DNA of 64,000 nt from Clostridia bacterium. GTDB taxonomy: Bacteria; Bacillota; Clostridia; RUG12999. Below are positions 25,388-55,788 of the stretch, piece after piece. The stretch spans positions 1 through 64,000 of the forward strand of contig JAAWTG010000001.1 in NCBI GenBank assembly GCA_022801925.1, given 5' to 3'. The position numbers and the translations under genes are program-made. Positions within the stretch are counted from its first letter, which is position 1; every line of letters starts with the position of its first letter. The notes beneath the pieces are model-generated. The model made no database searches. It had not been told where the DNA came from and saw only the letters and a list, made by a program, of their open reading frames with translations.

Positions 25388-26335
25388 ATGATGAAAAAGG
25401 AAGAGAAAAAACAAGTGCATAAAACCAGTATTGGCGGACAGGCCGTCATTGAAGGCGTTATGATGCGCGGGCCGGAAAAAATTGCGACGTCGGTGCGTAA
25501 ATCAAGCGGCGAAATTTTGTTAAAGGTGGACGATATCGGGCAGGTGCGCCGGAAAAAGATTTTGAAACTGCCTGTTATCCGCGGTGTGGTGAATTTTATT
25601 GATTCTATGGTGCTGGGCGTGCGGACGCTGATGTATTCCGCTGACCAATATGATGTGGAGGAAGACGAGGAAGCCTATAAACCCTCTAAATTTGACGATT
25701 TTATTGAACGGGTGTTCAGCAAGGACGCGCTGATTTATGTGTCTGTTGTAATTGCGCTGATTTTTTCTGTCGGTCTGTTTATTCTGCTGCCGGCAGCGAT
25801 TACCAGTTTCTTGCGTCCGTTTGTGCAGAGCGATTTACTTAAAACGCTGGTAGAAGGGCTTGTGCGCATGACTATTTTCATTTTATATATTTTTCTTGTG
25901 TCGCGCATGAAGGACATTCAGCGTGTGTTTGAATACCATGGTGCAGAACATAAAACGATTGCCTGTTATGAACACGGAGAAGAATTGACGGTGGAAAACG
26001 TTAAAAAATATTCGCGGTTTCATCCGCGCTGCGGAACCAGCTTTTTGATTATGGTAATGATTATCAGTGTATTGGTCTTTTCAGTAGTTTCATGGAACAA
26101 CATCTTGGTGCGCATGGGTATCAAAATTCTGTTGCTACCTGTTGTTGCAGGAATTACCTATGAATTCATCAAACTGGCGGGACGCAGTGAAAATAAAATT
26201 GTGCAGATATTGAACAAGCCGGGACTTTGGCTGCAACGGTTGACGACCCGCGAACCGGACGCCAGTCAGATTGAAGTGGCGATTTCGTCCTTAAATGCAG
26301 TATGTACGGGGAATAGAGAAGATGATAAATGGTAA
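25388..26335 (+). CDS. yqhQ: DUF1385 family membrane protein (YqhQ-like)
   Basis: A 315-residue polytopic membrane protein of the DUF1385/YqhQ family. Signatures: SIGGQAVIEGVMMRGPEKIA at the N-terminus, PVIRGVVNFIDSM, and the central YHGAEHKTIACYE followed by RFHPRCGTSFL. At least four hydrophobic segments. In Clostridia the gene commonly precedes prmC, as here. Function unclear. AAGGAG lies before two adjacent ATG codons (25388, 25391). The stop overlaps the prmC-radC start by 14 nt. Confidence 0.9.
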   Translation: MMKKEEKKQVHKTSIGGQAVIEGVMMRGPEKIATSVRKSSGEILLKVDDIGQVRRKKILKLPVIRGVVNFIDSMVLGVRTLMYSADQYDVEEDEEAYKPSKFDDFIERVFSKDALIYVSVVIALIFSVGLFILLPAAITSFLRPFVQSDLLKTLVEGLVRMTIFILYIFLVSRMKDIQRVFEYHGAEHKTIACYEHGEELTVENVKKYSRFHPRCGTSFLIMVMIISVLVFSVVSWNNILVRMGIKILLLPVVAGITYEFIKLAGRSENKIVQILNKPGLWLQRLTTREPDASQIEVAISSLNAVCTGNREDDKW

Positions 26336-27851
26336 TCGAATCAAAGATGTGATTTTAGAGGCAAGCAAAATATTAGACACTACCTGCGAAGAATCATTGC
26401 GGGAGGCGCGTATTCTCATGCGTGAATGCTTGCAGGTGGATGATGCAGAACTGATATTGCGTCTGGAAGCCCCTTGCAGCCGGAGTGTGCGGGAGCAATT
26501 CAGCGAAATGGTAGCACGGCGTGCCAAGGGTGAACCTACGGCATATGTTGTGGGACATAAGGAATTTATGAAACTGGATTTTTTGGTGGAAAAAGGCATT
26601 TTAATTCCCCGTCCCGAAACAGAGACACTTTGTGAATGGGTCATTGACCAGGCGCCGGAAAAAGCAAAAATTCTGGATTTGTTCACCGGAAGCGGCTGCG
26701 TTGGTATCAGTATTGCGCACGCATTGGAAAAGTCCAGCGTGTGCTGCGTGGATATTTCGGAGCAGGCGCTGGAGATTGTGAAAAAGAACAGTATGCGTCT
26801 GGACATGGGCAAACGTGTGCAGACAGTGCAGGCAGATTTGCGCGCTACATGGCCGTTTCAGGAAAATAGCTTTCATGTGATTACGGCGAACCCGCCATAC
26901 ATACCTACACGGGATATTGCGAAGCTGGAGAAAGATGTAAAAGAATATGAACCGCATTTGGCGCTGGACGGCGGCGAAGATGGGCTGGTATTCTATGAGA
27001 CCATTGCGAAAAATGCCGCGCGCATTTTGAAAACCAAAGGAATTTTGGCAGTGGAAATCGGTATCGGACAAGCGGACGACGTGGTGCGTATCATGAAAAA
27101 CTATCTGGTAGATGTGCAGGTAATTGAGGATTTACAGGATATTCCACGCGTTGTGATTGGATATAAAAAGAAACCGGATTATACAGGACACAGAGGAAGA
27201 GTGAAAGAACGTGCTATCACAGGCGGTTTGGAACATTTTCAGGAGTATGAATTACTGGAACTTTTGCTGTTTTATACCACGCCGCAAAAAGATACCAAAC
27301 CAAAAGCGAAAGAATTGCTGCGGGAAATCGGCAGCATTTCAGAACTGATAGATATGGCGTTGGAAGATTTGATGACCGCGGGAAAAATGACGGCGAACAG
27401 CGCGTTGTTGTTTTCCGTTATCCGCGAAGTGATGCAACGTTACAATCGGGAGAAATGGGCAGAAAAACCGGTTTTGGCAACTTGCCATGATGTGGGGCGT
27501 TATGCAGTCGATAACATTCCCAACGAAAAAGTAGAATCGTTTTATGTCATATGTTTGGATACGCAGCGCCGCGTGATAAAGATGGTGAAAGTGGCAAAAG
27601 GCGCGGTGGACTATGCGCCGGTCGATAAACGGGAGGTAACGCGTATTGCTTTGCGGACGGAAGCCAAGAGCGTTATATTGGCACATAACCATCCCGGCGG
27701 CAATTTGCAACCGTCTCAAGCAGACATTGAATTGACAAAGGAACTGGTTAGAGCGCTGGAAGCCAATGATATTGACGTGATTGACCATGTGATTGTCGGC
27801 GGCAAAGGAGAATATTTCAGTATGGAACAGGGAGGATTTATATTGCAGTGA
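26322..27851 (+). CDS. prmC-radC: Fused release-factor methyltransferase PrmC and RadC-family (JAMM) protein
   Basis: One uninterrupted 509-residue frame joins two usually separate proteins. Residues 1-~285 are full-length PrmC/HemK: helical N-domain, PRPETE, SAM motif ILDLFTGSGCVGIS and the catalytic N190-P-P-Y193, for methylating the Gln of the GGQ motif in RF1/RF2. Residues ~288-509 are a complete RadC: GHRGRVKER...LEHFQEYELLELLLFYT, then the JAMM motif H455-N-H457-P...D468 (HNHPGGNLQPSQAD). There is almost no linker. RadC's role is unsettled. ATG 26322 overlaps yqhQ; the stop overlaps lspA (GTGA). prfA is absent nearby. A missed stop in the assembly is the alternative to a genuine fusion. 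Confidence 0.93.
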   Translation: MINGNRIKDVILEASKILDTTCEESLREARILMRECLQVDDAELILRLEAPCSRSVREQFSEMVARRAKGEPTAYVVGHKEFMKLDFLVEKGILIPRPETETLCEWVIDQAPEKAKILDLFTGSGCVGISIAHALEKSSVCCVDISEQALEIVKKNSMRLDMGKRVQTVQADLRATWPFQENSFHVITANPPYIPTRDIAKLEKDVKEYEPHLALDGGEDGLVFYETIAKNAARILKTKGILAVEIGIGQADDVVRIMKNYLVDVQVIEDLQDIPRVVIGYKKKPDYTGHRGRVKERAITGGLEHFQEYELLELLLFYTTPQKDTKPKAKELLREIGSISELIDMALEDLMTAGKMTANSALLFSVIREVMQRYNREKWAEKPVLATCHDVGRYAVDNIPNEKVESFYVICLDTQRRVIKMVKVAKGAVDYAPVDKREVTRIALRTEAKSVILAHNHPGGNLQPSQADIELTKELVRALEANDIDVIDHVIVGGKGEYFSMEQGGFILQ

Positions 27852-52125: not shown

Positions 52126-52905
52126 GTGATTTATAACCAAGGCAGCGAGTATCATATTCATGTGAAACAAGGCGACATTGGGAAATATGTGATTCTGCCG
52201 GGCGACCCGGGGCGCTGTGAGGCGATTGCAAAACATTTGGAGCAGCCGGAAAAAGTGGCGCAAAACAGGGAATATACGACGTGGCGTGGCAAGCTGGAGG
52301 GCGAAATCGTGGCGGTAACCTCCACGGGCATTGGCGGCCCGTCCGCGGCAATTGCGCTGGAAGAATTGGTGCATGTCGGTGCGGACACGTTTATTCGTGT
52401 CGGCACCTGCGGCGGATACCATATGGAGGTGCTGGGCGGCGATTTGGTGGTGCCGACCGGTTCTATCCGTATGGAAGGCACTACGAAGGAATATATGCCC
52501 ATTGAATTTCCGGCTGTAGCGAATTTGGAAATTGCAAATGCGCTGGTGCAGGCGGCAAAACAAAAAGGATATCGCTGTCATGCGGGCGTGGTGGAAAGCA
52601 AGGATTCCTTCTATGGCGAGCATGAAGGCGCAAAAAAACCGGTGGGCTACGAACTGGAGAACAAACGCCGAGCATGGGTCATGGGCGGAACGCTTGCCTC
52701 GGAAATGGAAACGGCGGCGTTGTTTGTCGTGGGTGCAACACTTGGCGTGCGTGTTGGCGCAGTGCTGAACGTGATGGGGAATCAAATCCGGCGGGACAAT
52801 GGGCTGGACGATGCCATTGTTTATGACACAGACCGCGCTATCGAAGTGGCGGTAGAAGCCATGCGGCAACTCATTTGCGAAAGAAAAAGCGGAAAGGAAG
52901 GATAG
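52126..52905 (+). CDS. udp: Uridine phosphorylase
   Basis: Cleaves uridine with phosphate to uracil and ribose-1-phosphate in pyrimidine salvage. The 259-residue protein belongs to the PNP/UDP family: [18 protein letters not shown] (phosphate loop), signature [26 protein letters not shown] and [20 protein letters not shown] with the ribose-binding Glu. Similarity to E. coli Udp extends along the chain, but related nucleosides are possible substrates. GTG start at 52126 with AAGGAGGAGGG upstream; 21 nt after the ABC gene and 4 nt before the next. Confidence 0.9.
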
Positions 52906-52909
52906 GGCA

Positions 52910-53767
52910 ATGGCTGAGATGGATAACAAACAGACGATTTTAATTGGACAACAAGATGAAAAAAAGGTATATATTGAATATGCTGCGTATTTAAAGATTT
53001 TGAAATTCGGAAAAGGCGGCGCGTCTGACGGTGCACGCGGCGTATTGCTGGGAGAGAAAAAAGACGGTGGTATTTTTATTTCAGCGCTCTTGGAAGCGGT
53101 CTATACCGGCGGGGACGGCGTGGAAGCGCCGTCGTTCACAACGGATTCGTGGGAGCGTATCAAGCAGGAACGGGAAATGCTGTACCCGCATTTGGAGATT
53201 TTGGGAAGCTATAGCACCCATCCGGACGTGCACCCCACCGAACAGGATATTTTGATTCAGACAGGCTTTTTCAATGAACCGGACAATATTTTATTCATGT
53301 TTGACCCGGTTGCCAATGTGGAACGGGTGTATATCGGTGACAAGGAAAAATGGCGGCGCATGAAAGGATTTTTCCTGTATGACATGACGGGACGCAGCAT
53401 TGATTTGCGTCTGCGGGAAAATTTGACGCGGACGGTGGACAAAGAAGTGGAACTGCGCAACAAAGTGTTTCATGCGCTGTCCAAAAAAGTGTCCAACATG
53501 ATTGCGGCATTCACCATCTGCATTTTGGTGCTTGCGGTTGTCAATGTATATTTGGTGGTGCAGGTCTATCAAAACAACAAAATGGTAACGGCGGTACAGT
53601 CTGAGGCAAAAGCGCTGATGGACGAAGTGAAAGTGGCGGTTGATGTGATTCCACAGGTGATTCCTACGGCAACGCCAAAAGCAACGGCAACAGCAACGCC
53701 GACGCCAACAAAAACGCCGGAGTCCACCAAAAAACCGACTTCACCGACCAAAGCGCCGGTACAGTAA
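52910..53767 (+). CDS. Membrane-anchored MPN/JAB-like protein with Thr-Pro-rich tail
   Basis: A 285-residue protein. An N-terminal MPN (Mov34/JAB)-like domain (about 18-175) has ARGVLLGEKKDGGIFISALLEA and GSYSTHPDVHPTEQD (99-113). Compared with the JAMM consensus HxHP...D, His104, Pro105 and Asp113 are present but the first His is Ser102, so metal catalysis is doubtful. One membrane helix follows (about 196-220), then a short domain and a tail of Thr/Pro/Lys repeats (252-285, TATPTPTKTPES). The N-domain is expected inside the cell and the tail outside. It lies 4 nt after udp and 26 nt before ligA. Function unknown. Confidence 0.7.
   Translation: MAEMDNKQTILIGQQDEKKVYIEYAAYLKILKFGKGGASDGARGVLLGEKKDGGIFISALLEAVYTGGDGVEAPSFTTDSWERIKQEREMLYPHLEILGSYSTHPDVHPTEQDILIQTGFFNEPDNILFMFDPVANVERVYIGDKEKWRRMKGFFLYDMTGRSIDLRLRENLTRTVDKEVELRNKVFHALSKKVSNMIAAFTICILVLAVVNVYLVVQVYQNNKMVTAVQSEAKALMDEVKVAVDVIPQVIPTATPKATATATPTPTKTPESTKKPTSPTKAPVQ

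Positions 53768-53790: not shown

Positions 53791-55788
<1,998 letters not shown>

Follow-up and report, generated by a model that had tools for sequence, protein, structure and literature searches.

A membrane-anchored MPN-domain protein with a broken JAMM site, encoded between a phosphorylase gene and ligA in Clostridia

The window, by which we mean the whole 64,000-nucleotide stretch of Clostridia DNA analysed here, encodes a 285-residue protein (52910..53767, + strand) that combines an MPN/JAB domain with a transmembrane (TM) helix and a Thr/Pro tail. With a probability of roughly two in three, we consider this protein, which belongs to a Firmicutes family of MPN-TM(-LysM) proteins, to be anchored in the membrane and catalytically dead (MPN-minus), and to act as a scaffold after the genes of a conjugation system were lost or left behind. 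Since its active site is broken and ubiquitin-like machinery was not found in its genome, it is probably a scaffold rather than an enzyme.

The gene and its neighbourhood

The open reading frame is intact, real and conserved, with a AGGAAGGA stretch 5′ of its ATG start and counterparts in both congeneric genomes that we reached (L001 and L002, uncultured Clostridia MAGs), whose proteins are 98% and 96% identical to the window protein by alignment. Upstream lies a phosphorylase gene (52126..52905, + strand), with its stop 4 bases 5′ of the MPN-TM ATG. Downstream, 26 bases 3′ of the MPN-TM stop, begins a gene with homologues in both congeners (53794..55788, + strand), which we take to be ligA, a name given in the initial annotation by recognition from the sequence and without a family-library run. 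That annotation had set the gene between uridine phosphorylase and ligA, in agreement with the Pfam match of the upstream gene to PNP_UDP_1 and with ligA downstream; the order phosphorylase, MPN-TM, ligA is common to both congeners. The MPN-TM gene is likely expressed jointly with its two neighbours.

Domain identity and architecture

By its sequence, the window protein is an MPN-domain homologue, with the domain covering residues 12-166 (52943..53407, + strand). A profile of 20 family members (A3) matched it with E=1.8e-49, a value to be read in the knowledge that the window sequence is itself among the 20 rows. A profile from which the three window-genus sequences were left out still gave the domain 94.6 bits, against 6.0 for the best of 2,000 shuffles, which rules out a chance resemblance to MPN/JAB. 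The Pfam family JAB (PF01398) matched at E=1.9e-4 with 21.7 bits, slightly under its curated cut-off of 22.5, and hhalign compared the window genus with five operon MPN proteins (see below) at 99.1%. In searches against the PDB with phmmer, the window protein alone found RPN11 at E=0.017; the A3 profile found RPN11 (5e-11), an RPN11-like protein (6fjv, 5.6e-10), CSN5 (1.4e-6) and the MPN-minus PSMD7 (0.0013). The MPN/JAB homology claimed by the initial annotation is thus supported by Pfam, the leave-genus-out profile, hhalign and the matches to RPN11. An AlphaFold2 model from three near-identical sequences had a mean pLDDT of 38.8 and shows nothing on the fold, so that the fold assignment rests on sequence.

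NCBIfam profiles gave no relevant match to the window protein and PADLOC models none at E<=0.01; scans of IMG/VR yielded no confirmed relative. A plasmid search with the window protein found no relative, and one with an operon MPN copy found a single cyanobacterial MPN protein.

Hydropathy analysis shows a single strongly hydrophobic segment (Kyte-Doolittle mean of 2.69 over 19 residues from residue 198), predicted to form a single TM helix with residues 198-216 as its core (53501..53557, + strand). Basic residues immediately precede it (RNKVFHALSKK), which by the positive-inside rule suggests an N-in orientation. Residues 248-285 (53651..53764, + strand) form a tail rich in Thr, Pro, Ala and Lys, which is presumably extracytoplasmic; its 38 residues include 11 Thr and 9 Pro, and its length varies between species. 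In the Firmicutes MPN-TM-LysM family, the domain recognised by the family MPN profile is followed by one TM helix, as in the window protein, and by a C-terminal LysM domain, for which the window protein had no match to a LysM profile made from its relatives. Some operon copies likewise yielded no LysM (L012, L014, L015, L031, L033).

Several known groups offer themselves for comparison. With the orphan MPN-TM-LysM proteins of Clostridia and other Firmicutes, the window protein shares the architecture up to the TM helix, but it is without LysM and set between the phosphorylase gene and ligA. With the MPN+ proteins RPN11/PSMD14 and CSN5, its family shares the MPN domain by profile; unlike these, the window protein is membrane-anchored and has neither an intact metal site nor a proteasome context. 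In the titles and abstract openings of open-licence papers listed for membrane MPN-LysM proteins, dead bacterial MPN proteins, YukD/E1/E2/RING conjugation operons and bacterial ubiquitin-like systems, we found no description of this orphan protein.

Active-site residues and selection

Intact operon members of the family carry a glutamate followed by HTHP-x(5)-L-S-x-x-D. Aligned to these, the window protein retains a remnant of the JAMM motif, GSYSTHPDVHPTEQD, at residues 99-113 (53204..53248, + strand), in which Ser102 takes the place of the first JAMM histidine, His104 that of the second and Asp113 that of the aspartate. The motif serine column holds Thr110, and the loop is two residues shorter than in the intact relatives. 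The catalytic glutamate column is occupied by Gly41 (53030..53032, + strand) in four alignments, including a pairwise one with RPN11. The reading frame, the membrane anchor, the Thr/Pro tail, Ser102 and the shortened loop had all been described in the initial annotation and are borne out by the ORF, hydropathy and the alignments; as judged from these alignments, the active site is more damaged than that annotation recognised, as it had missed the loss of the glutamate. Of the features that define a JAMM/MPN+ protein, the window protein thus has the MPN domain, by sequence, but not the catalytic glutamate, the HxH pair (Ser102-Thr-His104) or the S-x-x-D element, and it has one of the features of an MPN-minus scaffold subunit, an MPN domain without the JAMM residues.

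The initial annotation had held that homologues lacking HP...D altogether would speak against its reading. Several orphan relatives do lack these residues, but the nearest ones do not, which is why the MPN assignment stands.

The MPN domain is under strong purifying selection and at least as constrained as ligA. Its dN/dS (omega, Nei-Gojobori) was 0.014, 0.017 and 0.023 in pairwise comparisons of the three genomes, among which dS of the domain reaches 0.77; the TM region had values of 0 to 0.012 and the tail of 0.034-0.071. For comparison, we obtained 0.044 and 0.038 for ligA and, from one pair, 0.039 for udp. A stronger statement, that the domain is more constrained than ligA, was rejected, as the differences in nonsynonymous changes did not reach significance in Fisher tests (p=0.15 and 0.48 for ligA, 0.07 for udp). 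With two catalytic positions lost in a domain under such selection, the idea of a pseudoenzyme, already raised in the initial annotation, is strengthened.

Relatives in ubiquitin-like conjugation operons

A search of 391 genomes sampled from the class Clostridia with the first 180 residues of the window protein (E<=0.01) matched 22. Two of these (G088, G312) have short JAB proteins of the common kind, and the remaining 20 encode MPN-TM proteins; TM segments were checked by hydropathy in 18 of them, and G001 and G002 carry near-copies of the window gene. In six of these 20 genomes (G086, G275, G304, G359, G388, G268), and in no other, we obtained strong matches to an operon-type E1 (E<=1e-103, at least 49% identity), the next among the matches listed being at 2e-29. 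The operons of G086, G304 and G275 encode two MPN proteins, a RING protein, a trypsin-like protease, an E2/FHA protein, an E1 and a ubiquitin-like protein (Ubl); that of G388 has the same components with a single MPN protein, and that of G268 comprises RING, one MPN, E2, E1 and Ubl. In G359, two MPN genes, RING and part of the E2/FHA gene are on one short contig and the E1 is in two pieces on another. Pfam names, obtained for the proteins of G086 and the Ubl of G275, were YukD (PF08817, E=4.7e-13), ThiF (5.2e-55), Trypsin_2 (6.7e-31), Prok-RING_1 (8.9e-14) and, within the same protein, UQ_con (27.4 bits, cut-off 27) and FHA (1.6e-13); further matches were to JAB (5.7e-9 and 8.8e-10) and LysM (1.2e-6). 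An E1-E2-RING-JAB-YukD operon type was reportedly described by Burroughs, Iyer and Aravind in 2011 (Mol BioSyst 7:2261).

The JAB proteins of these YukD-Ubl/E1/E2-FHA/Prok-RING_1 operons of Firmicutes belong to the same MPN family as the window protein, to which they are 29-35% identical, and the ten Clostridia copies likewise have one TM helix and a tail. They differ in the active site: E, H, H, S and D are complete in all ten operon MPN proteins of the six class genomes, whereas the window protein has G, S, H, T and D at these positions and its genome yielded no such operon. The motif is broken in all 14 other MPN-TM genomes (three of the window genus and 11 others). By genome, the association of the operon E1 with an intact site has a Fisher p of 2.6e-5, or 5.4e-5 with the window genus counted once, both values being uncorrected for kinship. 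This leads to a first prediction for the Clostridia YukD/E1/E2/RING operon, namely that its MPN-TM proteins would be active, membrane-bound isopeptidases.

Four Clostridia genomes carry pairs of intact JAMM-TM proteins, with LysM on one member of the pair in three of them. Complete or partial operons of YukD-type Ubl, E1, E2-FHA, trypsin-like and RING genes with one or two MPN genes were seen at L038-L042, L054 and L122-L124, in Clostridia and other Firmicutes.

Ubiquitin-like machinery in the genome of the window

The genome from which the window derives (G000) is 2.95 Mb long in 96 contigs and 96.37% complete. We found no YukD-type Ubl in it, either with the operon protein or with PF08817, and no E2 with either the operon protein or a family search. 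No ThiS/MoaD protein scored over the cut-off, the single weak match having 16.2 bits, while 11 of 14 control genomes were over it; nor was there an operon-type E1, the best of two distant E1-like proteins being at 5.2e-10. In the control genomes, the family searches matched 4 of 14 for YukD and 2 of 14 for E2, and the operon-protein searches for Ubl and E2 ran without a positive-control genome; these absences are therefore moderate evidence. Thus, none of the Ubl, E1 and E2 genes that accompany the operon JABs was found adjoining the window gene or elsewhere in its genome, and no operon gene was found by the congener copies either.

The A3 profile detected one copy of the family in this genome, the window gene itself. 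PF01398 had no match there, missing the window gene too, and PF14464 placed L034 over its cut-off and a RadC fusion, L036 and the window gene below it. L034 (G000, contig C23, 53381-53620) is a second Prok-JAB-like protein, with 35.3 bits, an open frame of 488 residues, an HSHN...S..D motif and a different architecture. The RadC fusion lies in the window at 26295-27851 (+ strand), where a single frame of 518 residues joins a PrmC methyltransferase (PrmC_N, MTS) to a RadC JAB domain (PF04002, E=5.7e-38) with the motif HNHPGG.

Scaffold, receptor, enzyme or relic

RPN8/PSMD7, CSN6 and eIF3f/h are eukaryotic MPN-minus scaffolds, which form complexes with an MPN+ protein. The window protein resembles them in having an MPN domain without, in all likelihood, catalysis, and PSMD7 is matched by the family profile. 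It differs from them in being, by profile, the single copy of its family in its genome, with no intact partner of the family seen. Under the scaffold reading that we prefer, the protein would descend from a membrane-bound JAMM isopeptidase whose task was to remove or process a ubiquitin-like modifier of the YukD type. The conjugation genes would then have been lost or left behind, and the MPN fold retained as a binding module on the cytoplasmic face that tethers a partner protein to the membrane, much as the eukaryotic MPN-minus subunits do, while the outer tail may merely span the wall or anchor in it. According to experiments reported in PMC1779556, YukD is not covalently conjugated to other proteins, for which reason the YukD-type modifier is an unproven element of this scheme.

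Such a scaffold has to be weighed against other uses of the same fold. As a pseudo-deubiquitinase, the protein might serve as a membrane receptor to which a ubiquitin-like protein still binds. MPN-minus folds are able to retain surfaces for a ligand, and the nearest relatives of the window protein adjoin YukD-type Ubl genes, both of which favour a receptor; against it, no YukD, ThiS over the cut-off, E2 or operon E1 was detected in the genome by searches of limited sensitivity, and we consider it unlikely. The same result leaves the earlier suggestion that the protein recognises a modifier-like peptide unsupported here, and a function through a local Ubl operon likewise found no support in this genome. 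Still less probable, in our view, is a variant metalloprotease, in which His108 on the short loop would replace the first histidine, zinc being bound by His104, His108 and Asp113, with another acid as the base. The initial annotation had proposed His108 as such a ligand and asked whether it and Ser102 are conserved. Within the genus, His108 is indeed invariant, as are His104 and Asp113, across three species and despite their synonymous divergence, a pattern also to be expected of a metal site; in the motif list of relatives, it occurs in the three sequences of the window genus alone, and no other listed member has a histidine at that position (in L085, one follows HTH immediately). Furthermore, an enzyme of this kind would have to work with Gly41 for the catalytic glutamate, and the neighbouring Asp40 is no conserved substitute, as it is Asn in one congener. 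Finally, a broken active site in a genome where the operon was not found would also be expected of a functionless, decaying relic of a lost ubiquitin-like operon, but we reject decay to a pseudogene because dN/dS of the MPN domain is 0.014-0.023; the low values of the TM region and a frame that is full-length in three species make a relic hardly credible.

Loss of the active site across the phylum

The A3 profile matched 34 of 398 genomes sampled from the phylum and 24 of 382 from the class. Three further loci (G491, G626, G476) adjoin operon genes and have intact motifs (the glutamate of L073 read by eye), without a TM segment by hydropathy, which brings the operon members with an intact site to 13 of 13 over both samples (9 genomes). 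Near the non-operon members, a six-frame scan with profiles of five operon partners found no partner gene at E<=1e-5 in any of 38 stretches, which were 4 to 19 kb long with some ending at contig ends, nor in the congeners L055 and L056; the whole-genome E1 search covered the class sample only. Among these 38 members and the window protein, the site is intact in 13 (including L092, with Asp for Glu) and broken in 26 of 39; in L088, L091 and L093, the glutamate is the sole loss among E, H, H and D. The rule of no operon, no active site is consequently true of the Clostridia sample, while the 13 intact non-operon members speak against it for the phylum as a whole. A few of the non-operon proteins are fragmentary or unusual: L071-L073, L081, L093 and L114 are without a TM segment, L114 being partly masked and L081 cut by the frame, and the glutamate of L073 fell in an alignment insertion and was read by eye.

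A maximum-likelihood tree of the MPN domain was computed with the JAB proteins L028, L029 and L118, which do not have the MPN-TM architecture, as outgroup; L117, another JAB protein of this kind, was kept out of the tree. The analysis covered neither L119 (G083, E=8e-4) nor the phylum matches with the four lowest scores, and for L020 and L027 we used L111 and L112, which are longer copies of these genes. The backbone of the tree has weak support. Broken members form 8 maximal all-broken clades, requiring 7 Fitch changes, so that the site seems to have been lost repeatedly while the gene was kept. Some of these clades are nested by intact or operon copies: L018 and L019 stand beside the operon copy L016 with a support of 87, and L088 lies within an intact clade. 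The window branch is long and weakly placed, with a support of 30 at the next node, for which reason we only infer a descent of the window gene from an operon copy.

Broken members in G330, G294, G242 and G261 adjoin a gene for DUF1256, which we take to be the spore protease YyaC (by Pfam in three, by tblastn in all four), and those of G330, G294 and G242 also adjoin DUF5711 (by Pfam in G330 and G294, by cluster in the third). In another broken clade, four of five members (G172, G150, G319, G076) have homologues of fliD and flaG no further than about 5 kb away, recognised by Pfam in G076 and by tblastn in the others; for the fifth, G192, at a contig end, no fliD or flaG was seen. These neighbourhoods suggest a recruitment of dead copies to fixed positions in the chromosome.

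A broader reading, which we offer tentatively and hold to be somewhat less probable than not, is that in Firmicutes the JAMM isopeptidases of a bacterial ubiquitin-like system repeatedly became membrane- and wall-anchored pseudoprotease scaffolds, which outlived the modifier system and settled at other loci, here in the ligA operon and elsewhere next to DUF1256 and DUF5711 or in the vicinity of flaG/fliD. They would be a bacterial counterpart of the eukaryotic MPN-minus scaffolds that arose independently several times. The JAMM domains of this family appear to have lost their active site several times, with strong selection known in the window genus. An orphan membrane protein would thereby be linked to a poorly studied bacterial ubiquitin-like conjugation operon, offering a testable model of how deubiquitinase folds turn into scaffolds outside eukaryotes.

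The broken MPN-TM loci adjoining DUF1256 are L048, L050, L051 and L140, and the broken MPN-TM-LysM loci near fliD/flaG are L046, L049, L052 and L053, with L046 and L053 directly by flaG. The MPN-TM-LysM proteins L078-L080 and L083-L087 keep E, H, H, S and D, but the residue following HTH is N, S, K, H, A or C instead of proline (HTHxGLG). The MPN-TM-LysM proteins L018 and L019 have the second JAMM histidine changed to cysteine (HTCP) and keep E, the first H, S and D; they are possibly a variant with a cysteine ligand.
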